Shown: in pieces, positions 6,957 through 34,626 of the stretch | Position numbering within the stretch: position 1 is the stretch's first letter | Layout: each line of letters begins with the position of its first letter | DNA from: an uncultured Bacteroidales bacterium | GTDB lineage: Bacteria; Bacteroidota; Bacteroidia; Bacteroidales; FEN-979 | Length of the DNA: 42,151 nt | Reading direction: 5' to 3' | Assembly (NCBI GenBank): GCA_903926565.1 | Contig: CAIYJU010000050.1 | Coordinates: 1-42,151, forward strand | Made by a program: the position numbers and the translations under genes | Notes under the pieces: generated by a model | Seen by the model: only the letters and a program-made list of their open reading frames with translations | Databases searched by the model: none | What the model was told of the DNA's origin: nothing

Positions 6957-6962
6957 CACTGA

Positions 6963-7550: not shown

Positions 7551-7851
7551 AAAATATATAATTTAAGTTGTTGATAATTAGTTGTTTGTTTTTGGTTTAC
7601 CTTAATCCACAATGAGTTGAAGATGTCTTGAGAGTTTTCTTCAACCACAATGACACAAAGTGAAAACACAAAGTACACTAAGAAACAGATTATGAGTTAT
7701 TTATTCTTTGTGTCTTTGTGACAACCTTTGTGTCTTTGTGGTTAACTTTTTTCAGACAACCTCCCGCAGGACAGGGTGAATTTTCAATGCCACAAAGGTA
7801 CAACACCCCCCCCACCCTGGAGTTACACAATCAGGAAGACAAGTGGTACAT
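7551..7851. other. Intergenic region with inverted-repeat element B
   Basis: This 301-bp gap separates the araC-like gene from the yceI-like gene, both on the minus strand. Most of it is inverted repeat B plus flanking AT-rich DNA. The yceI promoter should lie in the AT-rich 7551-7620 part, but no exact TAnnTTTG is present. A short open frame at 7718-7915 is made of repeat arm and gene antisense and is not a gene. Confidence 0.5.
7638..7750. repeat. Inverted-repeat element B (about 45-nt arms)
   Basis: The left arm (7638-7686) contains AACCACAATGACACAAAG and CACAAAG words. The right arm (7712-7750) contains CTTTGTGTCTTTGTG and CTTTGTGTCTTTGTGGTTAA, its imperfect reverse complement. The loop is about 25 nt. 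Layout and size match elements A and C. Confidence 0.75.
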
Positions 7852-8673
7852 TCAGGAAATGACCGGGTTCATTTGGTTACGGAAATCGGAGGGAGTGGTG
7901 CCGGTTTTCTTATGAAACACCCTTGAGAAGTATGATTTTTCATTGTAGCCAAGCTCAAAGCCGATCTCAGAAATGGTTTTTTCTGAATTCAGGAGCAGCT
8001 GCCTTGCCTCAATCAGCTTGCGTGTTTCGATGATTTCGGTGATGCTTTTGCCGAAAACCGCCTGGCTGATCAGGTTCAGGTTCCTGGCCGACATGTTTAA
8101 TTTATCAGCATAGAAATCGACTCCGACCGGGCGCTTAAAGTTATATTCAAGGATTTGCAGGAAGTTGTTAAACGTGATGAGCTGGGAGTTTCCTGCAACT
8201 TTCGGGTCAAGAAACTGTTTTTTTGTTGCCGATTCCAATTTTGAAAGGACGGCATTGAGCAGGTGCCGGATCATGGTGTAATCGACTGGTTCCTGGGCAT
8301 TTTCGCGAAGCATGATTTCACAGAGATCATGCATGGTGGTACTGCAAAAATCAACTTCCAGTTTGAAATTGATGTCATCGATGAAGGTAGAATAGAAATT
8401 AAAATTGCTTTGGGGGATGAAGTCGCTTGTGTACCGGATTACCCATCCACGGGTATGCTCATCAGGAATAAAACCATGCACCTTGCCCTGGGCAACGTAA
8501 ACAATGACAGGCGGAGTAAGGAATTCAGATTTGAAATCAATACTATGTGCCGGATGGCCATGCGTGAGTATGATCAGCTCTTCATGGTCATGCCGGTGGG
8601 GTTCCACCGGATTCAGGATGATGGAATCGACAACTTCACGGGTGATTTTTTCAATGTTGAATGGAGCCTTCAT
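7852..8673 (-). CDS. AraC-family transcriptional regulator
   Basis: This 273-residue protein has an N-terminal cupin-like ligand-binding half (HDHEELIILTHGHPAH, residues about 27-42) and a C-terminal AraC double helix-turn-helix (about 170-268). The second helix-turn-helix carries the family signature ISEIGFELGYNEKSYFSRVF followed by HKKTGTTPSDFR. It is expected to bind DNA as a regulator of nearby or distant genes, with the cupin half sensing an unknown ligand. It lies 3 bp after the ArfB gene, so it is probably transcribed with it. The YceI/dioxygenase pair 300 bp downstream is a plausible but unproven target. Confidence 0.9.
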   Translation of the reverse strand: MKAPFNIEKITREVVDSIILNPVEPHRHDHEELIILTHGHPAHSIDFKSEFLTPPVIVYVAQGKVHGFIPDEHTRGWVIRYTSDFIPQSNFNFYSTFIDDINFKLEVDFCSTTMHDLCEIMLRENAQEPVDYTMIRHLLNAVLSKLESATKKQFLDPKVAGNSQLITFNNFLQILEYNFKRPVGVDFYADKLNMSARNLNLISQAVFGKSITEIIETRKLIEARQLLLNSEKTISEIGFELGYNEKSYFSRVFHKKTGTTPSDFRNQMNPVIS

Positions 8674-8676
8674 TTT

Positions 8677-9087
8677 TCAGAGATTAAAGCTTCTTCGTTC
8701 CTTCTTTTCCGATAGCTGGCGTTTCGCCTCAAGCCGCTCCTCCTTTGAAGCCCTGGATGGTTTCGTGGGCTTGCGTTCTTTACGCGGTGTCAGGGCACGG
8801 GTAAGCAGGAGATAGAACTTTTCAGTTACTTTCTCTTTGTTTTGCAGTTGCGACCGTTCCGTTTGTGAAACAAGCACCAGTTCTCCTGCGGCATTGATCC
8901 TTGATGCAAGTTTTTCCGCAACAAGCAGCTTTTCGTCTTCTGTGAGCAATGCAGATGCAGCAACATGAAACCGTAGTTCCATTTTGGTACTCACCTTGTT
9001 CACATTTTGTCCGCCAGGGCCACTGCTTCGTGAGGCACTGAATTGGAACTCTGCTGAAAAATCCCGGTTATCCACAATCATTGGCAT
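8677..9087 (-). CDS. arfB: Peptidyl-tRNA hydrolase ArfB-like ribosome rescue factor
   Basis: This 136-residue protein carries the class I release-factor domain with the catalytic GGQ loop (SRSSGPGGQNVNKVSTK, about residues 19-35), and a basic C-terminal tail (RKERKPTKPSRASKEERLEAKRQ) like that with which ArfB/YaeJ enters the empty mRNA channel. It hydrolyses peptidyl-tRNA on stalled ribosomes. The size matches the family (about 135-140), so it is not a full release factor. Starts are possible at 9087 (MPMIVDN) and 9081 (MIVDN). A TAnnTTTG box on the minus strand at 9092-9099 would place the transcript start at or beside the first ATG, so the mRNA may be leaderless. Confidence 0.9.
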   Translation of the reverse strand: MPMIVDNRDFSAEFQFSASRSSGPGGQNVNKVSTKMELRFHVAASALLTEDEKLLVAEKLASRINAAGELVLVSQTERSQLQNKEKVTEKFYLLLTRALTPRKERKPTKPSRASKEERLEAKRQLSEKKERRSFNL

Positions 9088-9091
9088 CTAA

Positions 9092-9099
9092 CAAAAATA
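9092..9099 (-). promoter_or_regulatory. -7 promoter box for the arfB-like gene
   Basis: Read on the minus strand this is TATTTTTG, an exact TAnnTTTG match. It ends only 4 bases before the first ATG at 9087, implying a leaderless or nearly leaderless transcript or use of the second Met codon at 9081. Confidence 0.5.
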
Positions 9100-9176
9100 A
9101 ACCATTTTCCGCTATGTTCCATGAGATATTTACTGGGAGAAATTGATTACTTTTACACATTCAATCATGGAACACA

Positions 9177-10151
9177 TTGATATCACTGAACGAAATAAAA
9201 GCTCCCATTTCAGAACACATTGAGGCGTTTGAAGGAAAATTCCGTGCCTCCATGAAGAGTTCCGTACCTTTATTGAATACAATCACCCATTATATCATCA
9301 AACGCAAGGGAAAACAGATGCGCCCGATGTTTGTTTTCCTCTCGGCCGGATTATGTGGCGAAGTCAATGAAAGCACATTCAGGGCAGCCTCACTGATTGA
9401 ACTTTTACATACCGCCACCCTGGTTCATGATGATGTGGTGGATGATTCAAATTTGCGCCGGGGTTTTTTCTCCCTCAATGCACTTTGGAAAAACAAGATT
9501 GCCGTACTGGTGGGCGATTACCTGCTTTCAAGCGGGTTGCTGCTGGCCCTGGAACAGGACGAATTCCAGCTCCTTAAAATTGTTTCCAGTGCGGTGCGTG
9601 AAATGAGTGAAGGGGAGTTGCTGCAGATTGAAAAGGCCAGGAAACTCGACATCCGGGAAGATATCTATTTTGAAATTATCAGAAAGAAGACAGCCACGCT
9701 CATCGCCTCCTGTTGCGCCTGCGGTGCCTCGTCTGTCAATGTTTCAAAAGAGCTGGTTCAATCGATGTGGGCGTTTGGCGAGCATGCAGGCATCGCTTTC
9801 CAGATAAAAGATGACCTGTTTGATTACGAACGCAACAATGCGACAGGTAAACCAAATGGTACGGATATCCGCGATCAGAAAATGACGCTTCCACTGATAT
9901 ATCTGCTCAATCATGCAGATTTCATGGAGAAGCGCTGGATCATCAACACCGTTAAAAGTCACCACGACGATGCAGCCATGGTTTCGAAACTGATCAGTAA
10001 GGTGGTTGAGCGGGGCGGAATCGACTATGCCAGGGAGAAGATGCTTGAATACCGGCGGAAATCGCTCGAGATACTCCAGGCATTTCCCGACAACAAATAC
10101 CGGAAATCACTGGAGCAGCTGGTTATGTTTACAACAGAACGGACAAACTAA
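9177..10151 (+). CDS. All-trans polyprenyl diphosphate synthase (IspB-like)
   Basis: This 324-residue prenyltransferase elongates isoprenyl diphosphates and probably makes the side chain of menaquinone. It shows both aspartate-rich motifs: LVHDDVVDDSNLRR (first, about residues 79-92) and QIKDDLFDYE (second, about 211-220), plus the GKQMRP and LLHTATLVHDD context. The N-terminus (ISLNEIKAPISEHIEAF) aligns with the usual beginning of Bacteroidota homologues, so a TTG start at 9177 is the best choice. The upstream ATG at 9167 is out of frame and stops quickly. A near-consensus TACTTTTA lies at 9148-9155. The gene is divergent from the arfB-like gene and convergent with the histidine kinase. Confidence 0.92.
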   Translation: MISLNEIKAPISEHIEAFEGKFRASMKSSVPLLNTITHYIIKRKGKQMRPMFVFLSAGLCGEVNESTFRAASLIELLHTATLVHDDVVDDSNLRRGFFSLNALWKNKIAVLVGDYLLSSGLLLALEQDEFQLLKIVSSAVREMSEGELLQIEKARKLDIREDIYFEIIRKKTATLIASCCACGASSVNVSKELVQSMWAFGEHAGIAFQIKDDLFDYERNNATGKPNGTDIRDQKMTLPLIYLLNHADFMEKRWIINTVKSHHDDAAMVSKLISKVVERGGIDYAREKMLEYRRKSLEILQAFPDNKYRKSLEQLVMFTTERTN

Positions 10152-10169
10152 CACCGGGATTGAGATCCT

Positions 10170-11228
10170 TCACGCTTTTTTCAGGGTAAATCCAAAGGTT
10201 GTACCAACACCGATGGTGCTGCGCACATTGATTATCTGGTGGTGCGCTTCAACGATGTGTTTGACAATCGCCAATCCAAGCCCTTTCCCTTTTTTGGTTG
10301 CGGCCCTGCCGCGGACGGTGCGGTAAAAACGCTCGAAAACCCGTGCCATGTCAGCCGTATCAATGCCGATCCCATTGTCGGTGATCTCTGTCAGGATATT
10401 TTCATCCATGTCGTAAAACGTAATCTTCGTCTTGCCGTTTTCCCGGTTTCCATACCTGATGGAATTGTCGATAATGTTGGTGATCACCTGCCTGATTTTA
10501 TCCTTGTCAGCCTCAACCATGACCGGTTTTCCCGGGTCGTTTAACACAAACTGAATCTCGTTTTTGCGGGCCTTCATCTCCAGCAGCTCGGTTACCTCCC
10601 TGGTAAGGCTCACCAGGTCAAACCGTGTAACTCTCAGTTTCAGCTGCCCTGATTCAAGTTGTGAAATCTCGTCAAGGTCTTCAAGGATCTTCACCAGCCG
10701 TTCAATGCTCTTCTCAGTCCGCTTCAGGTATTCCCGGTTGACAGAAGGGTCTTCCAATCCGCCGTCAAGCAAGGTGGAAACATATCCCTGGATGTTGAAC
10801 AGGGGAGTTTTAAGTTCATGTGATACATTGCCAATGAAATCCCGGCGATACTGCTCCAGCCGCTTGAGCTGTTCAATTTCCCGCTGCTTGTCCGACTCCC
10901 AGTTTTCAACCTCTTCCTGAACATGGTCAATAATATTGTTGACCGCCTGAGGCAAGGGAGGGTCCCTTTTTCCTGTTTTTACAGAGTGAATGGATTTATA
11001 GATGAGCCTGACCTTACTGTAAATGAATCGTTCCAATGTGTACAGGAAAATGGAGTAGGCGATGATGAAAATGGCGGCAGAAGTGATAAGCAGCGCCAGG
11101 AATGTGTAAAAATGGATGAAAGCGTTTTCAAAGATGATACCAACCGAAAGTAAAAAAAGGATGATATAACTTCCTGTGATGATCCCCGCATTCAGAAACG
11201 CGAGATTTCTTGGCTCATGAAATTTCAT
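10170..11228 (-). CDS. PhoR-like sensor histidine kinase
   Basis: This 352-residue membrane kinase has two transmembrane segments (about 10-32 and 42-65) separated by only a few residues, so it has no real periplasmic sensor domain. The phospho-acceptor His137 lies in FIGNVSHELKTPL. The ATPase domain has the N box (NIIDNSIRYG), G1 (DNGIGI), F box (FERFYR) and G2 (GKGLGLAI). No PAS domain is visible between membrane and HisKA. The start overlaps the response regulator stop by 4 bp (ATGA), so the two are translationally coupled. PhoR-type phosphate sensing is suggested by similarity only; the signal could instead come from a membrane partner. Confidence 0.9.
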   Translation of the reverse strand: MKFHEPRNLAFLNAGIITGSYIILFLLSVGIIFENAFIHFYTFLALLITSAAIFIIAYSIFLYTLERFIYSKVRLIYKSIHSVKTGKRDPPLPQAVNNIIDHVQEEVENWESDKQREIEQLKRLEQYRRDFIGNVSHELKTPLFNIQGYVSTLLDGGLEDPSVNREYLKRTEKSIERLVKILEDLDEISQLESGQLKLRVTRFDLVSLTREVTELLEMKARKNEIQFVLNDPGKPVMVEADKDKIRQVITNIIDNSIRYGNRENGKTKITFYDMDENILTEITDNGIGIDTADMARVFERFYRTVRGRAATKKGKGLGLAIVKHIVEAHHQIINVRSTIGVGTTFGFTLKKA

Positions 11229-20067: not shown

Positions 20068-20141
20068 GGCTCCGTAGTTCAATTGGATAGAATGGCAGAT
20101 TCCGGTTCTGTTGGTTGGGGGTTCGAATCCCTTCGGAGTCA
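20068..20141 (+). tRNA. tRNA-Arg (anticodon CCG)
   Basis: The 74 bases fold as a full cloverleaf: acceptor GGCTCCG/CGGAGTC, D stem GTTC/GAAT, anticodon stem GCAGA/TCTGT with loop TTCCGGT (anticodon CCG, reading CGG), variable loop TGGTT, T stem GGGGG/CCCTT with loop TTCGAAT, and discriminator A. CCA is not encoded. A promoter box precedes it and a terminator-like hairpin follows about 70 bases downstream. Confidence 0.95.
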
Positions 20142-20210
20142 CAGATATATAATGATTATCAATGTGTTAAAAATGTTTTGAACTTTGAATTAATCATTAG
20201 AATTAAAAGT

Positions 20211-20967: not shown

Positions 20968-21864
20968 ATGAAAACACATTTCCTATTCATCATTATTGCA
21001 TTCCTGCTGTCGTCAATTAGTTTACAACTTTTAGCCCAGGTATCGGTCACTCCCGATGGCCGTGCTCCCGACAGTTCCGCCATGCTTGATGTGGTTTCAT
21101 TGAACAAGGGTTTGCTGCTTCCTCGTCTGACACATCAGCAGATTCAGTCTATTGCCAATCCCGCCAACGGATTGCTGGTGTTTTGCACGACCGACAAGAA
21201 ATTCTATGCTTTTCAGGCAGGCAATAACGTGTTCAGGGAAATTTCTTATGGTTCCGGCCGGATTACCTCCTGTTGCTATTGCGGCAATGATTTGACGGAT
21301 CAACGCGACGGGAAGATCTACCGGACGATTTTGATCGGGAACCAATGCTGGATGGCACAAAACCTTAATATTGGCATTCCATCGGACGGCAGCGTGACCC
21401 CGCAAAACAACGGTGCCATTGAAAAACACTGTTACAACGACTATGAAGACAACTGTAACTTATACGGGGGCCTTTACCGGTGGAAAGAGATGATGCACTA
21501 TGTCACCACGCCTGGTAGCCAGGGGATTTGTCCTGCCGGCTGGCATATTCCAACCGACGAGGAATGGACCACCCTGATCTCCTATCTTGGCGGAGCAGGT
21601 GTTGCCGGTGGTCCGATGAAAAGTACCGGTTTCTGGATGTCGCCAAACAACGGCGCAACCAATACGAGCGGATTCAGCGCTTTCCCGGGAGGAATAAAAG
21701 ATATTCCCGGTTTTGATAAACTTTCAACAAAAGGCTACTTCTGGTCCTCGACAAACAATAGCGATACAACTGCCTATGCCAGGGAACTCGGTTACGACAC
21801 AGGCACCGTGAACCGTATTGCAACACCCACGATGAATGGGGCCTCGGTTCGTTGTGTGAAGTAA
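20968..21864 (+). CDS. Secreted protein: shared head module plus FISUMP domain
   Basis: This 298-residue protein is the first gene of the surface-protein operon. After a signal peptide (to about Q24) comes a head module (about 25-92) shared with the next two genes: D-S-S-A-M-L-D at 35-41, then K-G-L-L-L-P-R-L-T and a hydrophobic G-L-L-V-F-C segment. The rest (about 108-298) is a FISUMP domain (Fibrobacter succinogenes major paralogous domain): YRTILIGNQCWMAQNLNIG, CPAGWHIPTDEEWTTL, YFWSSTNNSDTTAYARELGY and a final VRCVK. FISUMP is a secreted or surface module of unknown molecular role. The frame opens at a TTG at 20962, but the ATG at 20968 puts S-A-M-L at residues 37-40, exactly as in the two paralogues. 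No T9SS sorting domain is visible. Confidence 0.88.
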   Translation: MKTHFLFIIIAFLLSSISLQLLAQVSVTPDGRAPDSSAMLDVVSLNKGLLLPRLTHQQIQSIANPANGLLVFCTTDKKFYAFQAGNNVFREISYGSGRITSCCYCGNDLTDQRDGKIYRTILIGNQCWMAQNLNIGIPSDGSVTPQNNGAIEKHCYNDYEDNCNLYGGLYRWKEMMHYVTTPGSQGICPAGWHIPTDEEWTTLISYLGGAGVAGGPMKSTGFWMSPNNGATNTSGFSAFPGGIKDIPGFDKLSTKGYFWSSTNNSDTTAYARELGYDTGTVNRIATPTMNGASVRCVK

Positions 21865-21910
21865 CCCGCCATAAATAAATCCATTGCAACAGCAATAAAA
21901 TCCTACCACC

Positions 21911-22651
21911 ATGAAAAAACATTTTTTTTTAATCAGTTTGACAGGATTGCTGATTTTTTTTACGTTTCAGCTTTCTGCCCAGGTATCCATTTCAACCGAT
22001 GCGGCCGGTGCGGATAATTCAGCGATGCTCGATATCAGACCCCCCGTACCCAAAGGCGTTCTGTTCCCGCGTTTAACCGTGGAACAGATGCAGGCGATCG
22101 TTAACCCGACGAATGGATTGCTGTTGTTTTGCATTACCGACAATAAATTTTATACTTACATCGCTGCTGAAAACAGGTGGAGAGATCTGATTTATGGCGC
22201 GGATTCGATAAACCTGCTGCCTATGACCGCACCTGTTACGTGGCTTCCCGGAATCCAGTCGACTCCCGGTACCATCATCAGTGTTCCTGTAAAAGTTACC
22301 GGGTTTATCAACATCGGGGCCGTTTCGCTGACCATGCTCTTTGATACTGCGGTACTAACATACATTGAGGGTATCAACAGTTCGGGATTTCCTGGTATGC
22401 AAAGCAACAATGCATTACCCGGGAAAATCGCCCTCGGAGGCACTACGACAGGCGACGGGATCACCCTGCCGAACAATTCTACGCTTTATACCATTAACTT
22501 CCTTTATAAAGGCGGTTCAACACAAATGACATGGTGGGATTATGGCCCATCCTGTGAATATACAGGTCCGCCGGGTTACCCTGTCCTTCCTGATATACCG
22601 CAAGACACCTATTATATAAATGGTTCCGTTGGCCCTGTTAACCAACCATAA
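21911..22651 (+). CDS. Secreted protein: shared head module plus cohesin-like domain
   Basis: This 246-residue protein has a signal peptide (MKKHFFLISLTGLLIFFTFQLSAQ) and the same head module as its neighbours (S-A-M-L at 37-40, KGVLFPRLTVEQM, GLLLFCITDNKFYTY). The tail (about 112-246) resembles a cohesin-type beta sandwich: TIISVPVKVTGFINIGAVSL, MLFDTAVLTYIEGI, a Gly-rich middle and LYTINFLYKGG. Cohesins bind dockerins in cellulosomes, but similar folds occur as general adhesion modules, and no dockerin is evident in this window. The gene lies 46 bp after the FISUMP gene and 37 bp before the next, so co-transcription is likely. Confidence 0.8.
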   Translation: MKKHFFLISLTGLLIFFTFQLSAQVSISTDAAGADNSAMLDIRPPVPKGVLFPRLTVEQMQAIVNPTNGLLLFCITDNKFYTYIAAENRWRDLIYGADSINLLPMTAPVTWLPGIQSTPGTIISVPVKVTGFINIGAVSLTMLFDTAVLTYIEGINSSGFPGMQSNNALPGKIALGGTTTGDGITLPNNSTLYTINFLYKGGSTQMTWWDYGPSCEYTGPPGYPVLPDIPQDTYYINGSVGPVNQP

Positions 22652-22688
22652 TTTTTTAAAAATATTTATTTCCATAAGATCTCCCGTC

Positions 22689-24944
22689 ATGAAAAGAAAA
22701 CAAATATTACCCGGTTTCATTGCACTTTTCCTGGCCCTTTTTTTTCAGGTTCCGGCCCAGGTAGTCATCACCAACGACAGCACTGCCGCTGACAGTTCAG
22801 CCATGCTCGATGTAAAATCCACGACAAAGGGGGTGGCAATACCACGGTTAACTGTAGAGCAGATCCGGGCCATTCCCAATCCTGCGATCGGGCTTGTGGT
22901 GTTTTGCACCTCGGATGATCAGTTTTATACCTATACAGGCAGCGACACTGTGTCAGGAAAAACAGTTGCCGGCGGTGGAGTGTGGAAATTAACAGGAGGA
23001 ACAACCGCCTTTTTAAATGAATGTTATTGTATCTCATGGGGGGGGCAATCGGGCCCTGGGCCATTCCCTTACACATATGAACAAACATTAAGCTTTTGCA
23101 ATTCTGATCCAGTCTTTAACATTAATTGTCCTTTAGGTGTAGACCATTATTATACTGGTCCAGGTCCATTTCCGGTGTCTTGTTGGGCGTCGTATGCATG
23201 GACAGGCGCCACGCTTCCACCCCCGGCTTGGTCATCAACCCCTGTTTCATTGACTATTGACCCTTCCATGCTAACCTGCGGAAAATATACTTACACTTTT
23301 AACATAAAGGTTTGGGGAAATATCCTCTGTCACCAGGATTATACAGTTTATATATTCCCGGAATGTCTCACCATCGAGAAATTGACCGGAGGCGTGCCTG
23401 GCCCCCCTCATTCATCCTGCACAGCGGGGGATATCCTGGAATTTTGCAGGGATCAGGAAGGAAGGCTGTCCTCCGGATGCGCTGAGTTTCCTTTATCATG
23501 GGAATATAGTGATAATGGAGCGCCATTTCTGCCATGGAATCCTCCCACGACGCCAACCCCATATACCGATGATCCTATTTATCTGAACTTTGGTAATATC
23601 ACAAGCCCATCATCATGTCCGTCTACCAGTCCCGCAACAGATTGTTATTTACAGAGAACATACAGGGCGACCCTCACAAAACCGGCGGGATGGCCGGCAT
23701 GGCCATCTGGTTGCCCGAATCAGAATGTCCTGACCATCCCGGCAAAAATCTATTACCCCTCTATGGCAGGACTTAACATGGCTTATTTAAGCCATCCATA
23801 TACTGTCAGTGGAAATACCTATAAAGTCTGCAGCGATAAAAATGCAGATTGCATCCCTGATTATCCGGTAGATATAACACCCTCGCTTTGGCAACGAACA
23901 GGGCACATAACCAATGGAAGTCCAAACGGAATAGGCAATCAGTCATTTTCTGTATACGCACCGGGAACTTACGAATATTGGGCAACAGTCCAAAACGGTC
24001 CTGCTGGAACATGTGGCCCCGACACAAAATCGATATGGCTCATCGTGGAGGATCCCTTCTGCCCGGAGATCACGAACACCCGGGAATGGGCATGCCCGGA
24101 TAAAACGGAAGATATCATATCACTTTTACATTCTGAAGATCTGCCTCCGGGCGCGACCATCCAGTGGTATTACCAGATAAACTGTGTGGACCCCTGGTAC
24201 CCTGCGGATTATGTTCAGTTCGGTCCAAGCAACGGGTACCAGCAGAACACGAACATGATAGGAAGCCTGAATCCATGGTATAATCCTGTTTGTTCTTCGC
24301 TGATAACAGAAAGCCTGTGCTGGAAAGTTGAGATTACACCCGCCGCCGGTTCGGCCTGTACAGCCGCTACCTCTTCACGCGGATCAGATATAGAATTTCC
24401 CAATGGAAAAATAAAGCTCATCAAGAAGCCCGGAAAACCGGCCGTAAACATATCTCCGCCGCCACCGAGATGCTGCGGGACAAATTTTTTGCTCACCGCA
24501 AGTACGCCGGTGACGGGCACACCTCCTTTTTCATATGAATGGTACCACAACGGGCAGATCATCGGCGCCGGCAGCAGTATCAATGTTACCGCGCCGGGAG
24601 ATTATTTCGTGAGGGTTTATAACAGGAACCGCTGCGACTGGACCCAATCGGATACCACTCACCTTACGTGTTGCTCGGTCAATCTGAATGTAACAGCCGA
24701 TTGCTGTTCCGACGGTGTGACCCCCATGACCCTGGTTGCCTCAGCCACTTCGACATGCGGTAACGTAATAGGAACCTACACATGGAACGGTCCAAACGGA
24801 TATAGCTTTACTTCAACCAGCCCGGTTCTGGTTCTTGATCCGCCTCCGACCTTTCCGCCAGGAGAATGGATTTATACCGTAACGGCAAGAGATGCCATGT
24901 TATGCCAAAGTACGACGACAGTCATCATCCTGGCTTGTCCGTAA
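22689..24944 (+). CDS. Large secreted Cys-rich protein: shared head plus Ig/PKD-like domains
   Basis: This 751-residue protein begins with a signal peptide and the head module (S-A-M-L at 37-40, TTKGVAIPRLTVEQIR, GLVVFCTSDDQFYTYTG). The remainder is a chain of Ig/PKD-like beta domains unusually rich in paired cysteines, Trp, Tyr, Gly and Pro. Clear late units are RCCGTNFLLTAS...FSYEWYHNGQ and CCSDGVTPMTLVAS...GTYTWNGPNG. The protein ends directly after the last unit (TTVIILACP) with no T9SS sorting domain or FISUMP tail. The open frame extends upstream to 22620, but 22689 gives a signal sequence in register with the paralogues. Probably disulfide-stabilised, extracellular and adhesive or structural; the partner is unknown. 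Confidence 0.8.
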   Translation: MKRKQILPGFIALFLALFFQVPAQVVITNDSTAADSSAMLDVKSTTKGVAIPRLTVEQIRAIPNPAIGLVVFCTSDDQFYTYTGSDTVSGKTVAGGGVWKLTGGTTAFLNECYCISWGGQSGPGPFPYTYEQTLSFCNSDPVFNINCPLGVDHYYTGPGPFPVSCWASYAWTGATLPPPAWSSTPVSLTIDPSMLTCGKYTYTFNIKVWGNILCHQDYTVYIFPECLTIEKLTGGVPGPPHSSCTAGDILEFCRDQEGRLSSGCAEFPLSWEYSDNGAPFLPWNPPTTPTPYTDDPIYLNFGNITSPSSCPSTSPATDCYLQRTYRATLTKPAGWPAWPSGCPNQNVLTIPAKIYYPSMAGLNMAYLSHPYTVSGNTYKVCSDKNADCIPDYPVDITPSLWQRTGHITNGSPNGIGNQSFSVYAPGTYEYWATVQNGPAGTCGPDTKSIWLIVEDPFCPEITNTREWACPDKTEDIISLLHSEDLPPGATIQWYYQINCVDPWYPADYVQFGPSNGYQQNTNMIGSLNPWYNPVCSSLITESLCWKVEITPAAGSACTAATSSRGSDIEFPNGKIKLIKKPGKPAVNISPPPPRCCGTNFLLTASTPVTGTPPFSYEWYHNGQIIGAGSSINVTAPGDYFVRVYNRNRCDWTQSDTTHLTCCSVNLNVTADCCSDGVTPMTLVASATSTCGNVIGTYTWNGPNGYSFTSTSPVLVLDPPPTFPPGEWIYTVTARDAMLCQSTTTVIILACP

Positions 24945-24967
24945 ATCAGGAATCATATTTTTTAACC

Positions 24968-27703
24968 ATGATCAAACCATTTGCCATGAAAAAAATACAA
25001 TCTGCCGTGACCGGTCTGTTTTTGATTCCATGTTTTCTATTCATTTCCGGAAGAATGACGGCACAGGATAACGTGAAGGGTATCAACTGCAGCCTCTCCT
25101 CCCTGAAAGCAATCCAGGGATCCAACCAGAATGGATGTTATTTCGACATGCAGGTGATCCTGGATTACGATACGGTTGGCATGGTTCCCCAGGCGTGTCC
25201 GCATGGGATCAATGTGAGTCTCACCGGCGCAACCATCGTAAAAACTGAATTCCTGGCGAGCGGAACGAGCTTCCCGCAACCCTGGCCACCGGGTACCATT
25301 ACGGGAAGCAGTTTGAACTGGTTCACCAGTTCAAGTACCATCCAGTATCCGAATCCTGTCACTGACTTAACGACCTCAGTATGCTGGAGCAGGATATGTA
25401 ACCCTAACGCTTCCAACCCCTTTTTAAATATCCTTCCGCCAAAAATTGAATTTGAGCTGAGAATCTATGTTAAACCCGATCCAAGCGCGGTCAAAATTCT
25501 TGTGTCCCTGAAAACCATTCAGGGCTATGCCTGGGTTTCGCCTGCTGCGTCGCCCGGGTGCAATGTGTTTGATTGCCACAAGGAGTTCACCTTTGACAAA
25601 CCCTCGAAGGACTACATCATTGAATGTACAGAGAGTTCATCAACAATAAACTGTAACATATGCCTTCCTCCGGAAACTTACCGTAATTTACACCTGAATC
25701 TGCCAGTCCCTTCAGGGTCAACCGTGGTTTGGTATAACAGACCCTACCAGTTGTCTCCGCCACCGCCACCTCCCGCGGCTGGCTGGAATTTCTTTTCTCA
25801 ATCCAGCGGGCCTGACTGTCTGACGCCTTTAATGAATGTCTCAACCTATTGGGCTGCAGTGGTTACAACCGGTTGCTACAGCTATCCAAGTCGGGTAAAA
25901 CTTATTACTGTTTGCCATTCTAATACAGGGATCGGTACAACGGCGACAAATAATCTTTACTATCCTGTCTTAAAGTTGGTTGATGGGAAACCACATGCCT
26001 GTAGCCCATGGATGGGCACGATAAATCTTACCGGGCAGAATATAACCTGCCCAACCACCATAACATGGCAAAGAAAAGGTGGCAGTTTCGGGCCTGGATG
26101 GAGCTCTGTTCCCTCCTCCAACGGGCTCACGCAAATCCCGACAGGATCTTTGAACTATGTTTACGAATCGCAGAATCCGTGTTATGCAATATATTCTTTC
26201 AAGGTCACCCTGACCAATACGAGTAGCGTTTGCCCGCAGGTTAGCTCAACTATCGATATATACATAGACAAGGCAACCACAGCGGGATCGATCTCAGCAT
26301 ACTCCCTGGAAACAGGAATCGGAACTACAGGCGCTCCTGTTTTTTGCGACAGCGGATATACCAGCATTTCATATGCGGGCGCCTGTACAAAAGTGGATCA
26401 CTGGGAAAAAAGTGAAAATGCAGATCCATGCGGAACTGGTAATATCTGGCAGGATTGGACACTGATTCCCAACGCTCCTACAGGTGACAATACCACCTAT
26501 GCCACCAATGAGCTTTTCAGAACGACAAGATTCAGGACCCAGGTGTATAATTATGCCTGCGATACTGTTCCGTCCGAATCGTTGATTGTCAGAATAATTC
26601 CGCCATTATCGGTTACGGTCGCCGCCAATTCGCCTTGTCCCGATGTTTGTAATATGCCCGTCAGCCTTTCGGCCAGCGTTCCCTGTTCAACGGCATACGC
26701 TGCATTAACATATATGTGGTACAGGAATGGCGCTCCGGTTACCGGGATTCCACCGGGAAACACATTTAGCCCTTCACAGGGTGGTGATTACTATGTGGTC
26801 GTTTCCACCGGGACATGCGGAACAAAGCAATCGAATACAATTTCAGTTTGTGGCGCGCCCGGCGTTTCCATTTCCGGTCCCTGTGCCATTTGCTGCGGAC
26901 AAACGGCTACCCTGCAGGCAAATGTCGAGGGATGCAGTTGTCAAACCGTTACATACCTGTGGTCGACCGGCGCCACCACCCCCGTCATTGTTGTAAATTT
27001 ACCAGGTGTCTACGGCGTTACCGTAACAACCGGCAATTGTCAGGTATCGGCGTCCACCGTTCTTGATCAGTGCCCCTCGTCCGTATCTGGTCCTTTTCCA
27101 TGTGGAGATTCAATTACGATTAACCATCTGGTTTCAGGAGGCGTAGCCCCGGTCAATAAAACAGTGACTTACCAAACAGTTGCCAATATTCCGGGCGAAC
27201 CCTTAAAATGCTGGATAACCAGGAACCTGGGCGCCTCCCACCAGGCTGCCGCCGTTAACGATGTGTCTGAGGCATCGGCAGGCTGGTACTGGCAATTTAA
27301 CCGCAGACAGGGATTTCAGTTTATTAACTCGCGAATACCAAATACAACCTGGATAACTACTATCAATGAAAACCTTGGCTGGCAGGCTGCCAATGACCCC
27401 TGTTTCCTTGAACTTGGCTGTGGCTGGCGCATTCCTACCGCTACCGAATGGACGAATGTAGATGCTGCCGGCAACTGGCAGGGCTGGTCAGGACCATGGA
27501 ATTCCGCGTTAAGGATGCATGCGGCGGGGGCCTTGAATGGCAATGATGGTTCGATTCATGGAAGGGGTGTTTATGGCAACTACTATAGCAATACCGCTAG
27601 CGCGCTTACCGCCGCCTGGTTAATGAACTTTTTCGATAACCACAGTGCCGTTGACTCCGATATCAAGACTTGGGCAGATCCTCTCCGGTGTATTACAGAA
27701 TAA
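24968..27703 (+). CDS. Very large secreted protein: Ig-like repeats plus C-terminal FISUMP-like domain
   Basis: About 911 residues. It starts at 24968 (MIKPFAMKKIQ) or 24986 (MKKIQSAVTGLF), with a signal peptide ending near MTAQ. It lacks the head module of the previous three genes. A long Cys-rich region follows, with Ig/PKD-like units late in the chain (PVSLSASVPC...YMWYRNGAPV and QTATLQANVEG...YLWSTGATT). A Pro-rich patch (SPPPPPPAAG) lies near residue 260. The last 200 residues form a FISUMP-like domain: GEPLKCWITRNLGASH, ASAGWYWQFNRRQGFQ, CGWRIPTATEWTNVD, LRMHAAGALNG and LRCITE. The open frame reaches back to 24866 inside the preceding gene, but that part is antisense to nothing and lacks a signal. 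It sits 23 bp after its neighbour. Confidence 0.8.
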   Translation: MIKPFAMKKIQSAVTGLFLIPCFLFISGRMTAQDNVKGINCSLSSLKAIQGSNQNGCYFDMQVILDYDTVGMVPQACPHGINVSLTGATIVKTEFLASGTSFPQPWPPGTITGSSLNWFTSSSTIQYPNPVTDLTTSVCWSRICNPNASNPFLNILPPKIEFELRIYVKPDPSAVKILVSLKTIQGYAWVSPAASPGCNVFDCHKEFTFDKPSKDYIIECTESSSTINCNICLPPETYRNLHLNLPVPSGSTVVWYNRPYQLSPPPPPPAAGWNFFSQSSGPDCLTPLMNVSTYWAAVVTTGCYSYPSRVKLITVCHSNTGIGTTATNNLYYPVLKLVDGKPHACSPWMGTINLTGQNITCPTTITWQRKGGSFGPGWSSVPSSNGLTQIPTGSLNYVYESQNPCYAIYSFKVTLTNTSSVCPQVSSTIDIYIDKATTAGSISAYSLETGIGTTGAPVFCDSGYTSISYAGACTKVDHWEKSENADPCGTGNIWQDWTLIPNAPTGDNTTYATNELFRTTRFRTQVYNYACDTVPSESLIVRIIPPLSVTVAANSPCPDVCNMPVSLSASVPCSTAYAALTYMWYRNGAPVTGIPPGNTFSPSQGGDYYVVVSTGTCGTKQSNTISVCGAPGVSISGPCAICCGQTATLQANVEGCSCQTVTYLWSTGATTPVIVVNLPGVYGVTVTTGNCQVSASTVLDQCPSSVSGPFPCGDSITINHLVSGGVAPVNKTVTYQTVANIPGEPLKCWITRNLGASHQAAAVNDVSEASAGWYWQFNRRQGFQFINSRIPNTTWITTINENLGWQAANDPCFLELGCGWRIPTATEWTNVDAAGNWQGWSGPWNSALRMHAAGALNGNDGSIHGRGVYGNYYSNTASALTAAWLMNFFDNHSAVDSDIKTWADPLRCITE

Positions 27704-27800
27704 TTCAACCCGGTCGCTTACCGGTAAACCGGAATGCAAATGCCGTTCTAATAAAGATTCCGTTGAAAAATGAACACACAAAAATTAAATACATAAAACC

Positions 27801-29615
27801 ATGAAAAAGATCTTAGTAATGATGGTTCTTGCGCTTGCTGGCACAATGTCAAATGCGCAATGGTCGCCAGGGCCCGGCAACCTTTACATGTTAACAAATG
27901 GTAATGTTGGCATCGGGACAAGTAGTCCCACCAATACGCTTCATATTATCGGCATCGTAAATCCCGCAACAATTAGACTTGAAAATCAAACCCCGCTCGG
28001 TTACACTCAAATCACGATGTCTGACCTGGCGGCTGGAAATACCTGTGACTGGCGGTTTAAAACTGCCACCGGGGGTCAATTCAGGATCAGGGATCAGTCA
28101 GATGCCCGTGATGTTCTTATTTTTGAACGTGTAACTTCGGGAGCTCCGACATCGCTTTATCTTAACAGCAGTGGTGATTTTGGAATTGGAACAGTTACCC
28201 CTGCCCGAAAACTGGAAGTTAGCGGAATGGCGCGAGTTCAATTAACGCAAGGAGGCACAAAAATAGTTACTGCCAATGACTTTGGAGACTTGTATCATGG
28301 CGTAACTTTTCCATCCAACCCAAATGTATACTTAAATGGAGATGGTGCATTTACAATACCAGCAGTTAATGATGCAGATTGGTATGAAACAGGCACCACA
28401 CATCCACCTGCTGCCATGGGTCTGAATATTTATTCAACGGGAAATGTTGGAATCGGATCAACCAATCTTCCCTCAAATAAGTTACATATTTTCGGTCCCG
28501 GAACAAACGATGGGATGAGAATAACGCCAACAGGCGCAACTTTGACTAAACGGACAGGCGCAACCATATGGTTGGATGGTAACAAAGTGGGTGGTGCCGG
28601 CAGGGATTTTGTAATTCATACTACAGGGATAGATAATACGCAAGCCCCCGGTCAATTGGTTTTTCGTGATTTTTGTGCCAGGACTGATGTTCTGACATTG
28701 GATACCCGTAACATGAGGCCATGTGGTCAGGCAACGGGGGGGAAAGCTATTGTTAAGGTTAGGGGAGATTTTAAAGTTTATGGGATTCCCTGGACATCAA
28801 ATGCACTGTGGACGACATCAGATTCCACCATTAAAGAGAATATTCAAAGTATATCAAACGCATTGGGTACTATTGCCGGACTTCAACCAAGAACCTTTGA
28901 TTATAAAGTAAACGAATTTCCCTATCTAAATCTGCAAGCCGGCAACCAGTTTGGCTTTATCGCACAGGAAGTTGATGCCGTTTTGTCAGATCTTGTTCAG
29001 GATTTTAGCATTTCAGAAGAAAAAGACTCGCTGGGAAATATCGTTGTCCCTGCTTCGGCTTTCAAATCGCTGAATTATAATGGCCTTATCCCTGTTGCCA
29101 TTGCAGGCATCCAGGAACTTGACAATACGGTGACCCAGCTTTCCGCGGCAAGTATAAAAAAATCCTGCTCGCTGAATGTGAACTATCTTACCAAATCAAC
29201 GGGAGCGGATTTAGTGTGCAACAGCCAAATCTATGATAATGGTTCTTGTGTCGGAATAGGAACAAGCACGTTACCTTCAGGTTATAAACTGGTCGTTGAA
29301 GGAAAACTGGGGGCAAGGGATGTTTTTGTTGCATGTGTGGGATGGCCTGATTATGTATTCGGCAGCGCTTACCAACTGAAACCGCTTGAGGAGGTGGAGA
29401 AATATATTGCTGCCAATAAACACCTTCCGGGAATACCATCGGCCAATGAAATAGAAACAGAAGGAGGTTTAAACCTCGGAGAGATGCAAAAGAGGCAAAT
29501 AGAGAAGATTGAAGAGCTTTATAAATATATTATCGAAATGAATAAAAACATGCAGCAGCTCACGATTGAAAACAAGGAGCTGAAGGAGCGCGTGAAAGCC
29601 ATGGAGAATAAATAA
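27801..29615 (+). CDS. Secreted tail-fibre-like protein with S74 chaperone domain
   Basis: This 604-residue protein has a signal peptide (MKKILVMMVLALAGTMSNAQ), then repeated trimeric fibre motifs: GNVGIGTSSPTNTLHI, GDFGIGTVTPARKLEV, GNVGIGSTNLPSNKLHI and later VGIGTSTLPSGYKLVV. At about residues 338-430 is an intramolecular chaperone of endosialidase domain (peptidase S74): TTSDSTIKENIQSI, FDYKVNEFP and QFGFIAQEVDAVL. In phage tail spikes it trimerises the fibre and then cuts itself off at the Ser before its first Asp. A second module follows (WPDYVF, YQLKPLEEVEKYI, HLPGIPSANEIETEGGLNLGEM) common at the ends of Bacteroidota fibre proteins, then a coiled coil (YKYIIEMNKNMQQLTIENK). Expected to be a trimeric surface fibre. 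Confidence 0.88.
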   Translation: MKKILVMMVLALAGTMSNAQWSPGPGNLYMLTNGNVGIGTSSPTNTLHIIGIVNPATIRLENQTPLGYTQITMSDLAAGNTCDWRFKTATGGQFRIRDQSDARDVLIFERVTSGAPTSLYLNSSGDFGIGTVTPARKLEVSGMARVQLTQGGTKIVTANDFGDLYHGVTFPSNPNVYLNGDGAFTIPAVNDADWYETGTTHPPAAMGLNIYSTGNVGIGSTNLPSNKLHIFGPGTNDGMRITPTGATLTKRTGATIWLDGNKVGGAGRDFVIHTTGIDNTQAPGQLVFRDFCARTDVLTLDTRNMRPCGQATGGKAIVKVRGDFKVYGIPWTSNALWTTSDSTIKENIQSISNALGTIAGLQPRTFDYKVNEFPYLNLQAGNQFGFIAQEVDAVLSDLVQDFSISEEKDSLGNIVVPASAFKSLNYNGLIPVAIAGIQELDNTVTQLSAASIKKSCSLNVNYLTKSTGADLVCNSQIYDNGSCVGIGTSTLPSGYKLVVEGKLGARDVFVACVGWPDYVFGSAYQLKPLEEVEKYIAANKHLPGIPSANEIETEGGLNLGEMQKRQIEKIEELYKYIIEMNKNMQQLTIENKELKERVKAMENK

Positions 29616-29633
29616 TGCTAAAAGTATAAAGCC

Positions 29634-31007
29634 ATGATCAAAAGTAACAGATACCTGGTTATAAGGATAATCCTGCTGTTTTGGCTCACAGGAGGGTGTC
29701 CGTTTGCGCCGTTGAGAAGTCAGAACCTGATCATCAACAATACAAATTTCAATTCCGGACAGCACCAGTTTTTCAGTCCTGGAATGATCACTTCACCCGA
29801 TGCCTGTAACAAACCGGTGCAGGTAACCGGCAATGCAAATACGGAATATAAAGCTGTTAATTATGTTCATTTGGGCGGTGGTTTCAATACTTCGCTGATA
29901 ACCGGTTGCGGAACATTTCATGCGGGCACGGGAAGCCAGCCGCTGGGCTGTCCGACGGCCATTATTACCGGCGCTCAGGCCTTCTGCGGGAATACGATAC
30001 TTTCCGCGGCATCATCTGCAAACGGAGGCGGAACAATTACCTCCTACTGGTGGCAACTGAACGAAAATGACATCCAGGGGGCGACTAACGTGACTTATGC
30101 CGCATCCCTGTCAGGGAACTATACCGTAATAATTACAAATTCCAATAATTGTACCGTCATATCCGATGTGTTTCAGGCCGTCAGTAGTCCGGCCGTCGGA
30201 CTACCGACAGGGCTTACAGCCACAAATATAACAGGCAGTTCCGCCCAGCTCTCATGGACATCCGTCGCCGCTTTGTGGGATATCGAATTTGGCAATGTCG
30301 GATTCGCCCCGGGAACAGGAACCCTTGTGACAGGAATAACCCAGTTGCCCTACGAGCTTACTGGGCTTACACCAAATACCGGCTATGCCTACATTGCAAG
30401 GGCCGATTGCGGCGGAGGCCAATACAGCTCCTGGACAAGCGCTTTTCCGTTTACGACGCTGCCTGGCGTTCCAGCGAATGCAACCATAGAAAATGTCACC
30501 ATTTCCAACGGACAATCGGCATGTTACAATGCCACCAATACCATTACCGTTGCCGGCAATGGAAAGACCTTTACGGTTGATGAAGGAGGAGCGGCCATCC
30601 TGATTGCCGGAGATAAGATTATTTTCCACCCGGTGGTCGGGGTGTTTCCAGGAGGTTACATGCATGGTTATATCGTTTCCGGAGGACCCTGGTGCGGCGA
30701 AAAGGCGGCTTCGATTGTAACGCTTCCCGAAAAAGAAAGCCCGACTTATCAGGTGGTGGAAAAACCATTTTTCACAATCTATCCGAACCCAACCACCGGT
30801 GGGTTTTCACTGGAGCTCCGGGGCATTGACCAAACTGATGAACTCCGGGTTGAAATTTATGGAATGCTTGGGGAACGCGTTCTTTCAACAGATCTGTCAG
30901 GAAAGAGGAAATATGACTTTTCATTGGCAGGAGTGCCCAATGGAGCCTATTTCATCCGTGTGGTTTCCGGGAAATTTACCAGAACCGGGAAGGTTTTAAA
31001 GCAATAA
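29634..31007 (+). CDS. Surface protein with Fn3-like domain and T9SS type A sorting signal
   Basis: This 457-residue protein has a signal peptide, an Ig/PKD-like unit (TAIITGAQAFCGNTILSAAS, ITSYWWQLNEND), a fibronectin type III-like domain (LPTGLTATNITGSSAQLSWT, YELTGLTPNTGYAYIARADC, YSSWTSAFPFTT), a further beta region, and a C-terminal T9SS type A sorting domain (FTIYPNPTTGGFSLEL, VEIYGMLGERVLS, GAYFIRVVSG, KVLKQ). The sorting domain directs export across the outer membrane by the type IX system and usually attachment to A-LPS. It is the last gene of the surface operon (18-bp gap) and the only one with a recognisable sorting domain. Confidence 0.9.
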   Translation: MIKSNRYLVIRIILLFWLTGGCPFAPLRSQNLIINNTNFNSGQHQFFSPGMITSPDACNKPVQVTGNANTEYKAVNYVHLGGGFNTSLITGCGTFHAGTGSQPLGCPTAIITGAQAFCGNTILSAASSANGGGTITSYWWQLNENDIQGATNVTYAASLSGNYTVIITNSNNCTVISDVFQAVSSPAVGLPTGLTATNITGSSAQLSWTSVAALWDIEFGNVGFAPGTGTLVTGITQLPYELTGLTPNTGYAYIARADCGGGQYSSWTSAFPFTTLPGVPANATIENVTISNGQSACYNATNTITVAGNGKTFTVDEGGAAILIAGDKIIFHPVVGVFPGGYMHGYIVSGGPWCGEKAASIVTLPEKESPTYQVVEKPFFTIYPNPTTGGFSLELRGIDQTDELRVEIYGMLGERVLSTDLSGKRKYDFSLAGVPNGAYFIRVVSGKFTRTGKVLKQ

Positions 31008-31236
31008 AAAAGGCGCAAAGTTTCACAGAGAACATTTGAGACAGTCTTCCCTGCTATTTCGCTACAGAGTTGATCCTTATCAACTCACTTTTTTGATCGT
31101 TCAAATGCTTGCGGTATTTACCCGGGCAAAAATGTGTGCCTGGGAATACCAGCGAAAAAGAAAAAATAAAATCTCTAAAGCCAAATTGAAAACAGTTGAT
31201 ACCCATAATCCCCGCCAATATTCACATGCCGGTTTT
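31008..31236. other. Intergenic region between convergent genes
   Basis: About 230 bp with no credible gene. The first part contains a short string (GCGCAAAGTTTCACAGAGAA) reminiscent of one arm of the inverted-repeat elements. A 70-codon frame at 31036-31248 is basic and patternless and is not called. No clear terminator was seen. Confidence 0.45.
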
Positions 31237-32079: not shown

Positions 32080-32580
32080 ATTATGGCCTTTATAACTCAT
32101 TGTGCGCCGGATAATTTTCAAAAGGTTTCGAACATGTTCCTGTTCATTTGCTGTTTGCCCGGCAAAATTAAACATACCTCCCGGAAGAAAGGTGTCCATT
32201 CATGGCAAATCCTGCGTTTTTAAGCCATTTTTAAGCCATTTTTAAGAATCATTTTAGCGAAAGGTTAATCCAATGCCCACAACTTGTTTCCCACTGTCTT
32301 GTCCTTACCCGCAACCGAATGTGTGTCAAAACCGGAAATAGTCTAAATAAGAGAAGCGGCTCTAAAAATTAGAATATTGTGATATTTACCATTTTTTTAT
32401 GTATCTGTTAATTAATGACATATGATTTTTTTTGTTAAGGCCTGGTATTTGTAATTTCTAAAATGTTTCCGGCACAAAGAAAAGTGAATTATTATTACAT
32501 TTACTGAAAAAAAGGTTTTTATATAGTCAATTAATCAAAAACTGAAAAAATTGATGCTAAACAATATAAAACTGCAGATT
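32080..32580. other. AT-rich divergent intergenic region
   Basis: About 500 bp with no gene called. It includes an 11-bp direct repeat AAGCCATTTTT (about 32220-32243, two copies plus a partial third). The rest is AT-rich and should hold divergent promoters for the YD-repeat and LruC genes, but no exact TAnnTTTG was found in either direction at a suitable place. Confidence 0.45.
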
Positions 32581-34626
32581 ATGAATACGACAAACAGAAC
32601 TTTACTGGTTTTCCTCCTTTTTATATCCATTTCGTTATTGCTTTTAAGTTCATGCAAAAAAAAGGAGGATGTTCCTTCCGATCCGGTTATCACGTCTATG
32701 GATGATCTGAAAGCTCCTGCCGGATTTACTTTCAGTACCAGCCAGGGTGTTGGGATTGAAGTGAGAATGCTTGACAATGAAGATAACCCTGTTCCCGGGA
32801 TGCGTGTTGATGTTTACACTTCCGACCCGGAAGACGGGGGCCGTTTAATGGTAGCAGGGATAACAGACGGGCAGGGCTACTATAAGGTAGATTATCGTAT
32901 TCCGGCATACCAGAAAAGTGTGGTTGTCGGCACACGTGCCATTGGTTTTCCGAACAGGACAACCGTCAATGTGACTGCCGGCCAGATCCGTTGTACCCTT
33001 GGCGGGAAAACCACGCCCTCCCGATACAAAAGTGGTGAAGCATTCTTCAAAAGTACTAACGCCGTGTATAAACCAATGGGAACCTACAACAGCCTGGGTG
33101 TGCCCAATTACCTTACGCCACAGAATGATGCCATCAATGCCGCCATGATCAACGACATCAATTCGACTCTGCCTGAATATCTGTCTGCCCCGACCAACCG
33201 TCCCGACTATTTTCTTGCCGCCAACCAGCACAATCTTACGCTCAGCCAGGCGTGCAATGTATGGGTGACGTTTGTGCACGAAGGCGCCGGGTATAAAAAT
33301 GTTCTGGGGTATTATAAATATAATGCAAACAATCCGCCGGCCACACCCAATAATATTGATACCGTGCACATCATTTTCCCGAACGTATCTTTCAATAATT
33401 CAGGTGGGGGATTAAACTCAGGCAACCGCGTGTACCTTGGACAGTTTGCCCCGGGCACGACACTGGCCTGGATGCTGATTGCCGATGGTTTCAGGAACGG
33501 GACTGTCACCAACGGCAACTGGGTAGTGTATTCCGATAACCAGCTGAACCCTGAAGCTGCGGCAAATAAAAAACAGCACACCATTTTTCTGAACGACATC
33601 GGCCGTGGAAAATTCCTGCTTAGCTTTGAAGATATCAGGCGTGATGGCAGCAGCGATAATGATTTTAATGATGCGATTTTTTATGTGTCAGCTGATCCCA
33701 TCCAGTCAGTCAATACGAGCAACATCCCTATGCCGAACTATACACAAACCGATTCCGACGGAGATGGCATTTCCAATGCTTTTGACGACTACCCGGATGA
33801 TCCCGCCAAAGCATTCAACAACTTCTATCCATCGGAAAACTACAATGGTACGCTTTCATTTGAAGACCTTTGGCCGGGTAAGGGTGACTATGACATGAAC
33901 GATGTGGTGGTCGATTATAATTTCAACCAGGTAACCAACGGCACGAACAAGGTGGTATCCATTGCAGGAGCATTGACCCTCAGGGCGATGGGTGCAGGAT
34001 ACAGGAATGGTTTCGGGCTCCAGTTGCCCATTTCACCAAACCAGGTTACCAGTGCGACAGGAATGCATATGACGGAAAATTACATTACGAATTCAGCCAA
34101 CGGAACCGAAGCCGGTCAGTCGAAAGCCACAATTATTGTTTTTGACAATGGATACACCGTTCTTGAAAAACCTGCATCCGATCCGTTTACCGGGGTGAAC
34201 ACCTCTGTTGGTTGCACCTACGTGGCCCCGGTCACGATTAATATTAATGTATCACTCAGCGCCCCGGTCGCTCTGAGTGTGCTCGGTACACCACCTTACA
34301 ATCCGTTTGTGATTGCCAATAAAACCCGTGGCCGCGAAATTCACCTTGTCAATAAAGCGCCGACCGATCTGGCCGATCCCGCTTTCTTCGGTACAGGTGA
34401 TGATTCAAGCATACCGGGCGGCAGCCGGTATTATACCACATCCAATAACCTTCCCTGGGCTTTTGATATTATTGATCAGTTTGATTACCCGATCGAAAAG
34501 AGACCGATACTGGAAGGATATACGAAATTTGCTCCATGGACAGTGAGTGGCGGGGCTGTCAATTATGATTGGTTTGTACCAAACCCGGGTTATCGGAACA
34601 GTCAGTATATTTTTTCTGCTCCCTGA
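32581..34626 (+). CDS. LruC/DUF4114-domain surface lipoprotein
   Basis: This 681-residue protein has a lipoprotein signal (FLLFISISLLLLSSCKKKED; Cys lipidated). A carboxypeptidase-like or Ig-like beta domain (GVGIEVRMLDNEDNPVPGMRVDVY, GQGYYKVDYRIPA) comes next. The middle contains DUF4114-type sequence (VTFVHEGAGYKNVLGYYKYN, LLSFEDIRRDGSSDNDFNDA) with Asp-rich runs that may bind calcium. The C-terminal half is an LruC-like domain (DUF4842): TDSDGDGISNAFDDYPDDP, GTLSFEDLWPGKGDYDMNDVVVDY, MGAGYRNGFGLQLP, GREIHLVNKAPTDLAD. DSDGDGISNAFDDYPDD is a thrombospondin type 3-like calcium loop. The open frame begins at 32551, but 32581 gives the cleanest signal sequence. A strong terminator follows. Probably outer-membrane or surface anchored; function unknown. 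Confidence 0.88.
   Translation: MNTTNRTLLVFLLFISISLLLLSSCKKKEDVPSDPVITSMDDLKAPAGFTFSTSQGVGIEVRMLDNEDNPVPGMRVDVYTSDPEDGGRLMVAGITDGQGYYKVDYRIPAYQKSVVVGTRAIGFPNRTTVNVTAGQIRCTLGGKTTPSRYKSGEAFFKSTNAVYKPMGTYNSLGVPNYLTPQNDAINAAMINDINSTLPEYLSAPTNRPDYFLAANQHNLTLSQACNVWVTFVHEGAGYKNVLGYYKYNANNPPATPNNIDTVHIIFPNVSFNNSGGGLNSGNRVYLGQFAPGTTLAWMLIADGFRNGTVTNGNWVVYSDNQLNPEAAANKKQHTIFLNDIGRGKFLLSFEDIRRDGSSDNDFNDAIFYVSADPIQSVNTSNIPMPNYTQTDSDGDGISNAFDDYPDDPAKAFNNFYPSENYNGTLSFEDLWPGKGDYDMNDVVVDYNFNQVTNGTNKVVSIAGALTLRAMGAGYRNGFGLQLPISPNQVTSATGMHMTENYITNSANGTEAGQSKATIIVFDNGYTVLEKPASDPFTGVNTSVGCTYVAPVTININVSLSAPVALSVLGTPPYNPFVIANKTRGREIHLVNKAPTDLADPAFFGTGDDSSIPGGSRYYTTSNNLPWAFDIIDQFDYPIEKRPILEGYTKFAPWTVSGGAVNYDWFVPNPGYRNSQYIFSAP

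Follow-up and report, generated by a model that had tools for sequence, protein, structure and literature searches.

Six predicted secreted-protein genes in one run

A 42,151-nucleotide stretch of a draft genome from an uncultured Bacteroidales bacterium (contig CAIYJU010000050.1 of assembly GCA_903926565.1; the whole stretch is called the window here) carries six open reading frames (ORFs), g1 to g6, at positions 20968-31007, all on the + strand. The source genome, labeled G000, amounts to 4.69 Mb in 210 contigs at 93.84% completeness, and the window is its contig C50. The original prediction, made from the bare sequence, described six tightly spaced, co-directional genes that all encode leaders. 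Rederivation of the ORFs bore this out: from g1 to g6, the genes are separated by 46, 37, 23, 97, and 18 bp (with the g3 start set at the ATG at 22689), and every protein reads as a predicted hydrophobic leader followed by Gln. Leader-then-Gln is the Bacteroidetes "Q-rule" in the available text of PMC10653852. The six genes likely make up an operon, as follows.

20968..21864, + strand: g1; leader, N-terminal module (N-module, ~21037-21264), FISUMP head of predicted lectin fold (~21280-21861)
21911..22651, + strand: g2; leader, N-module (~21980-22207), cohesin domain (~22250-22519)
22689..24944, + strand: g3; leader, N-module (~22758-22970), long Cys-rich region with 34 Cys, immunoglobulin (Ig)-like by weak similarity
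24968..27703, + strand: g4; leader, Cys-rich Ig-like region with 39 Cys, C-terminal FISUMP-2 domain, without the N-module
27086..27700, + strand: FISUMP-2 domain of g4, whose last 61 residues are 27518-27700
27801..29615, + strand: g5; leader, tail-fibre-like GIGT repeats, S74 chaperone domain (28818-28997), coil-like C-terminal end
29634..31007, + strand: g6; leader, PKD-like and fn3 domains, type IX secretion system (T9SS) type A sorting domain (~30777-31004)

The ORFs were scanned with Pfam and NCBIfam profiles at E 0.1. The g1 head matched FISUMP (TIGR02145, E 5e-47; PF09603/TIGR02145 at 128.5 and 160.7 bits, over the curated cut-off), g2 matched cohesin (PF00963, E 1e-6; 29.2 bits against a curated cut-off of 24.1), g5 matched Peptidase_S74 (E 5e-14), and g6 matched fn3 and the T9SS sorting domain TIGR04183 (E 6e-12). 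These module identities had been proposed originally and stood. The tail of g4, proposed as FISUMP, did not: no Pfam or NCBIfam model matched g3 or g4 at E 0.1, and because the g4 C terminus (residues ~707-911), a divergent FISUMP relative, fell below recognition by PF09603/TIGR02145 at that threshold, it was given the working name FISUMP-2. The claim that only the last gene carries a sorting signal was upheld, since the same scans found a T9SS domain on g6 and none on g1-g5. Against PHROGs, g5 resembled phage tail-fibre families (phrog_9942, E 4e-23), and the best value for g1-g4 was E 0.014. The literature searched returned no paper under the term "FISUMP," none combining "tail fiber domain-containing" with "T9SS," and no mention of PF26696 or PF26707.

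A shared N-terminal module and its predicted structure

The original prediction overlooked that g1, g2, and g3 have their N-terminal 85-100 residues in common, at 47-49% identity, with the core QVxINxDxSxPDxSAMLDVKSTxKGxLxPRMTxxQxxAIxxPAxGLLVF. The source genome holds 43 matches to this N-module at E 0.01, some within one ORF, and tandem N-module genes occur elsewhere. Protein-database entries assign the module to PF26696, which postdates the Pfam release scanned here. Twenty-five module proteins of the PF26696 type (those passing among 51 candidates) bear varied further domain accessions, which we take to be FISUMP, S74, tail collar, C1q, collagen, fn3, and FG-GAP; one database protein with the module, P0161, also has a T9SS domain. 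Among 65 complete unique module ORFs in the fetched loci, the module lies within the first 60 residues in 62, the match begins at Gln in 54, and a custom hidden Markov model (HMM) for the T9SS domain found none (77/79, 67/79, and 0/79, respectively, with cut ORFs included). A phage origin of the module was considered and rejected, with a single match in 50,697 phage records and nothing better than the PHROGs value above.

Structure prediction, which the original prediction had called for, succeeded in part: g1 gave a confident model as a monomer, and the g4 domain gave a poor one. The N-module of the g1 model has a weak likeness to the C terminus of a phage tailspike and to the collagen XVIII trimerisation domain. 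From this likeness to trimerising folds, the N-module of g1-g3 is likely a trimerisation foot and the proteins likely form trimeric fibres. The best Foldseek match of the g1 model was Legionella Lcl, and the g1 head, of the lectin-like Lcl type, is predicted to have a lectin fold. Residues 49-298 of g1 also align to the major tropism determinant (Mtd) of Bordetella phage BPP-1, loosely, at an rmsd (root mean square deviation) of 11.5 A. Profiles A2 and A3, compared with the sequences of solved structures, gave one insignificant match each (E 0.69 and 0.38).

Gene order and head families in related genomes

Conservation was assessed in 61 genomes, the source genome and 60 relatives, 18 of them from the same genus. 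Without its module, g3 has a strong match in G018 only (of the 60 relatives; 1/18 of the same genus), plus two weak partial rows. A scan of genome contigs with the g3 alignment, using two peptide patterns, returned one locus, JAPLDF010000043.1, from the "Bacteroidetes bacterium" LacPavin metagenome-assembled genome, and may omit the window's own record. The G018 run reads g1 (62%), g2, g3, g4, and then two T9SS proteins that have the last third of g6 in common (43% and 51%) and contain SprB repeats. There g2 keeps the module (identity 0.70) and has FISUMP instead of cohesin, g4 has FISUMP instead of FISUMP-2, g5 is missing from the run, and the flanking genes are unlike those of the window. 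In G001 the g5-g6 pair is found at 50% and 47%, 16 bp apart, with g6 cut by the contig end. G015:C175 runs from a FISUMP-2 gene, truncated at the edge of the fetched sequence, through an N-module plus S74 gene to a T9SS gene. Blocks of the predicted gene order thus recur in three congeners, and the full set of six in no other genome searched.

Adjacency of S74 and T9SS genes was compared with a background. The best 40 of 67 non-window S74 rows were taken; 30 had a co-directional next gene, and 27 remained after 3 cut by a sequence end were dropped. By the custom HMM, the next gene carried a T9SS domain in 7/27 cases after S74 and in 18/300 background cases (Fisher p = 0.002), the background being 300 next genes (L071-L082, L117-L141, L182-L195) from loci chosen for other reasons, not at random, in related genomes. 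Dropping one weak T9SS call (L206, E 3e-4) gave p = 0.007 to 0.009. A T9SS domain was also seen on 2/10 non-co-directional S74 neighbours (L218 and L239). The adjacency exceeds background, a modest effect, and it lends the suggestion that g6 serves as an anchor modest support. A T9SS marker (SprA_N, E 3e-159) and six dockerin matches are present in the source genome; g6 may therefore have an export route, and g2 may have dockerin proteins to hold.

Features flanking the run are a tRNA gene, a hairpin, and a neighbouring ORF.

20068..20142, + strand: tRNA-Arg (CCG), directly upstream of the operon
31067..31086, + strand: terminator-like hairpin 3' of g6, a consensus match only

Terminator-like sites in the region number 10, against 11.9 expected by chance, and the hairpin after g6 is not above chance. 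Just past the operon, at 32551-34626 of the window, is an LruC-domain protein (DUF4842 plus DUF4114). In the window the tRNA-Arg gene is near an aldolase gene. A copy of it lies at most ~1.5 kb from the aldolase gene in 11/12 fetched same-genus genomes and ~13 kb from it in G007. In none of the 7 genomes with at least 9 kb past the tRNA was g1-g4 found there; 3/7 have module, S74, or FISUMP genes at that place. The tRNA-Arg/aldolase pair is a genus landmark with variable content beyond it among the fetched genomes, a possible insertion hot spot.

Matches to g4 occurred in 41/61 genomes (the source genome included), and among those listed most span just its last ~205 residues, mainly at 50-62% identity. 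Relatives have reverse transcriptases with the motif IGNLTSQ, which we take to be the type found in diversity-generating retroelements (DGRs). A DGR reverse transcriptase query matched 13/61 genomes at E 1e-10, including 8/18 of the other same-genus genomes. A scan of the fetched loci for template and variable pairs found DGR cassettes that target these heads in four relatives, three of the same genus.

G015:C169 and G012:C29: variable repeat in N-module plus FISUMP-2 proteins
G009:C6: variable repeat in a FISUMP head, ORF cut at the contig start
G048:C646: variable repeat in a FISUMP-2 head, with the order unchanged and the ORF cut

In the best 90-base windows, mismatches fell at template A in 9/9, 9/9, 11/11, and 8/8 cases (G015:C169, G012:C29, G009:C6, and G048:C646, respectively). 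A FISUMP-2-like template adjoins a reverse transcriptase in G003 and G001, on contigs where the scan turned up no variable repeat. Other DGRs in these genomes aim at other targets. Across 91 relatives of g4, FISUMP-2 has a mean entropy of 3.29 at 18 template-Asn columns versus 1.19 at the other 42 (p = 6e-10); across 84 relatives of g1, FISUMP has 3.40 at 21 such columns versus 1.70 at 42 (p = 3.4e-9). The g1 and g4 heads thus belong, by sequence, to families that DGRs appear to rewrite in related genomes. Separately, a same-genus DGR (L123, G015:C149:194000-210000, at 4985-10491) is a multi-target cassette in which a single template goes with three variable repeats, each in its own target ending GFRLVFVP, presumably of the FGE-sulfatase-like family. 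At L137 (G048:C250, 4007-5341), a DGR target combines collagen-like GATG repeats with a DUF1566-like tail, a plan like that of Legionella Lcl and subject to hypermutation.

The heads in the window were examined for the same signature, in an adenine test that uses templates of other species, so that ordinary divergence dilutes the signal. Over its last 61 residues, g4 can be aligned with the variable repeats that belong to DGRs in relatives. Enrichment of mismatches at template A was absent for g4 (30/87, p = 0.28) and g1 (24/74, p = 0.65). At constant template positions, g4 agrees with 0.48, the lowest of its 91 relatives being 0.55, and g1 agrees with 0.52, which ranks 22nd from the lowest among 85. 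Module, core, and tail of g1 are each 0.65 similar to its G018 orthologue; against three database relatives, the tail (0.49-0.57) is lower than the rest (0.64-0.77). Of the 15 own-genome tails tested, eight reached p < 0.01, uncorrected (C204, C59, C162, C158, C179, C143, C126, C108), with g1 and g4 outside these eight, and the FISUMP-2 tails G000:C204 8231-8413 (22/32 mismatches at template A) and G000:C59 643-819 (20/31) have the strongest bias. A DGR reverse transcriptase was not matched in the source genome at E 1e-10, in an incomplete draft, and no orphan template was found among its 14 tail matches. Its two PF00078 matches were rejected as DGR enzymes: one is an intron-type fragment, and the other (L069, G000:C186, 1252-2373) has the motifs IGAPTSP and YADD, which we read as retron-like. 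The tests thus do not support g1 or g4 as active DGR targets: there is no adenine bias, no orphan template was found, and the g1 tail is not extra variable against G018. Both heads look fixed, and the best description is of static proteins within families that DGRs target.

Interpretation and comparison with known systems

The reading we prefer, at a probability of about 0.58, is that the run is a likely operon of predicted secreted adhesins in which the shared N-module is a likely trimer foot under three different heads. The products would leave the cell as adhesins, probably as trimers whose heads can be exchanged, and a T9SS partner may help to export or hold them. In g1, g2, and g3, a common foot would be joined to a FISUMP, a cohesin, and a Cys-rich Ig-like head, respectively. 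Export would be by Sec, trimers would assemble on the cell surface, and the heads might bind glycans, particles, or other cells. The g2 cohesin may capture dockerin proteins, and g6, the sole protein with a T9SS sorting domain, may aid export or anchoring. Heads of this kind appear to be rewritten in those relatives that carry a DGR; the ones in the window look static, not hypermutated. The surface-fibre role proposed originally gains from the shared module, its likeness to trimerising folds, the predicted lectin-fold head, and the recurring blocks. All six genes were found together in no other genome searched; the original prediction had named just such an absence as refuting it, and, read strictly, that is what was found, with blocks of the order recurring instead. 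Also conceivable, though doubtful, is a two-stage recognition scheme in which DGRs would mint lectin heads, recombination would move successful ones onto a collagen-XVIII-like trimer foot in fixed operons, and signal-less fibres would surface via a T9SS partner in trans.

The genes could instead be a loose cluster drawn from a huge paralogous family, made neighbours by duplication or rearrangement and lacking a joint function. The many N-module matches in the source genome, the spread of g4 matches, mostly FISUMP-2, over 41/61 genomes, tandem module genes elsewhere, the occurrence of g1-g4 apart from g5-g6, and the failure to find a genome with all six would all suit such a cluster; G018, however, retains the g1-g4 order despite other flanks, G001 retains the g5-g6 pair, and S74-to-T9SS adjacency is above background, so we regard it as possible but rather unlikely. 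That the run is under active DGR targeting, with the retroelement absent from the assembly, is improbable. The draft is incomplete and in many contigs, the g1 and g4 heads come from DGR-target families, and tails C204 and C59 are still biased to template A, but neither a reverse transcriptase nor an orphan template was matched, g4 and g1 are unbiased, and in the comparison with G018 the tail of g1 does not vary more than its other parts. Least credible, and very improbable, is that the proteins belong to a prophage or phage-like particle and are not cell-surface adhesins: the resemblance of g5 to tail-fibre families and of the N-module to a tailspike end is set against leaders on all six proteins, the T9SS sorting domain on g6, the lone phage-record match of the module, and the lack of any phage gene among four window neighbours scanned.

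If the preferred reading holds, a large group of Bacteroidota surface proteins, most of them still unnamed, could be described by one plan, a single foot with many heads. Two questions then become testable: do DGR-less genomes reuse heads that were once hypermutated and have since been frozen, and by which route do fibres without a sorting signal, encoded next to T9SS proteins, reach the surface?

To call the run an undescribed system, as was originally done, was too strong, because DGR-type proteins that carry FISUMP/DUF1566 heads of lectin fold behind varied N-terminal modules already form a known class in the available parts of PMC4159848 and PMC8144416. The run resembles the DGR C-type-lectin variable proteins (DUF1566/Fib_succ_major; PMC8144416, PMC4159848, and PMC8143477, as far as the accessible text goes) in its C-terminal lectin-fold heads on varied modules and in head families whose hypervariable columns are template Asn codons, with such cassettes in four relatives. 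Unlike them, the window heads show no adenine signature, the search of the genome turned up no DGR, and two such heads stand in one run alongside cohesin, S74, and T9SS proteins. Legionella collagen-like adhesin Lcl, in the available portion of PMC11162425, likewise has a C-terminal lectin-like DUF1566-type head and a trimer-type stalk, whereas g1-g3 have no collagen repeats, their trimer is predicted, and several different heads occur per run. With S74 (endosialidase-chaperone) tail-fibre-like proteins, g5 shares the S74 domain and GIGT repeats, but it has a leader and adjoins a T9SS-sorted gene. Mtd, a phage tail protein without a leader, similarly has an N-terminal trimer part and a lectin-fold head, though its alignment to g1 is loose. 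Cohesin-dockerin attachment of the cellulosome type is resembled by the g2 cohesin and the predicted dockerins of the genome; the g2 cohesin differs in being fused to the N-module, and G018 has a FISUMP head in its place. The parts are of known kinds; what is new is that they combine a common foot, heads that have been swapped, and heads from DGR families in a run that lacks such an element.
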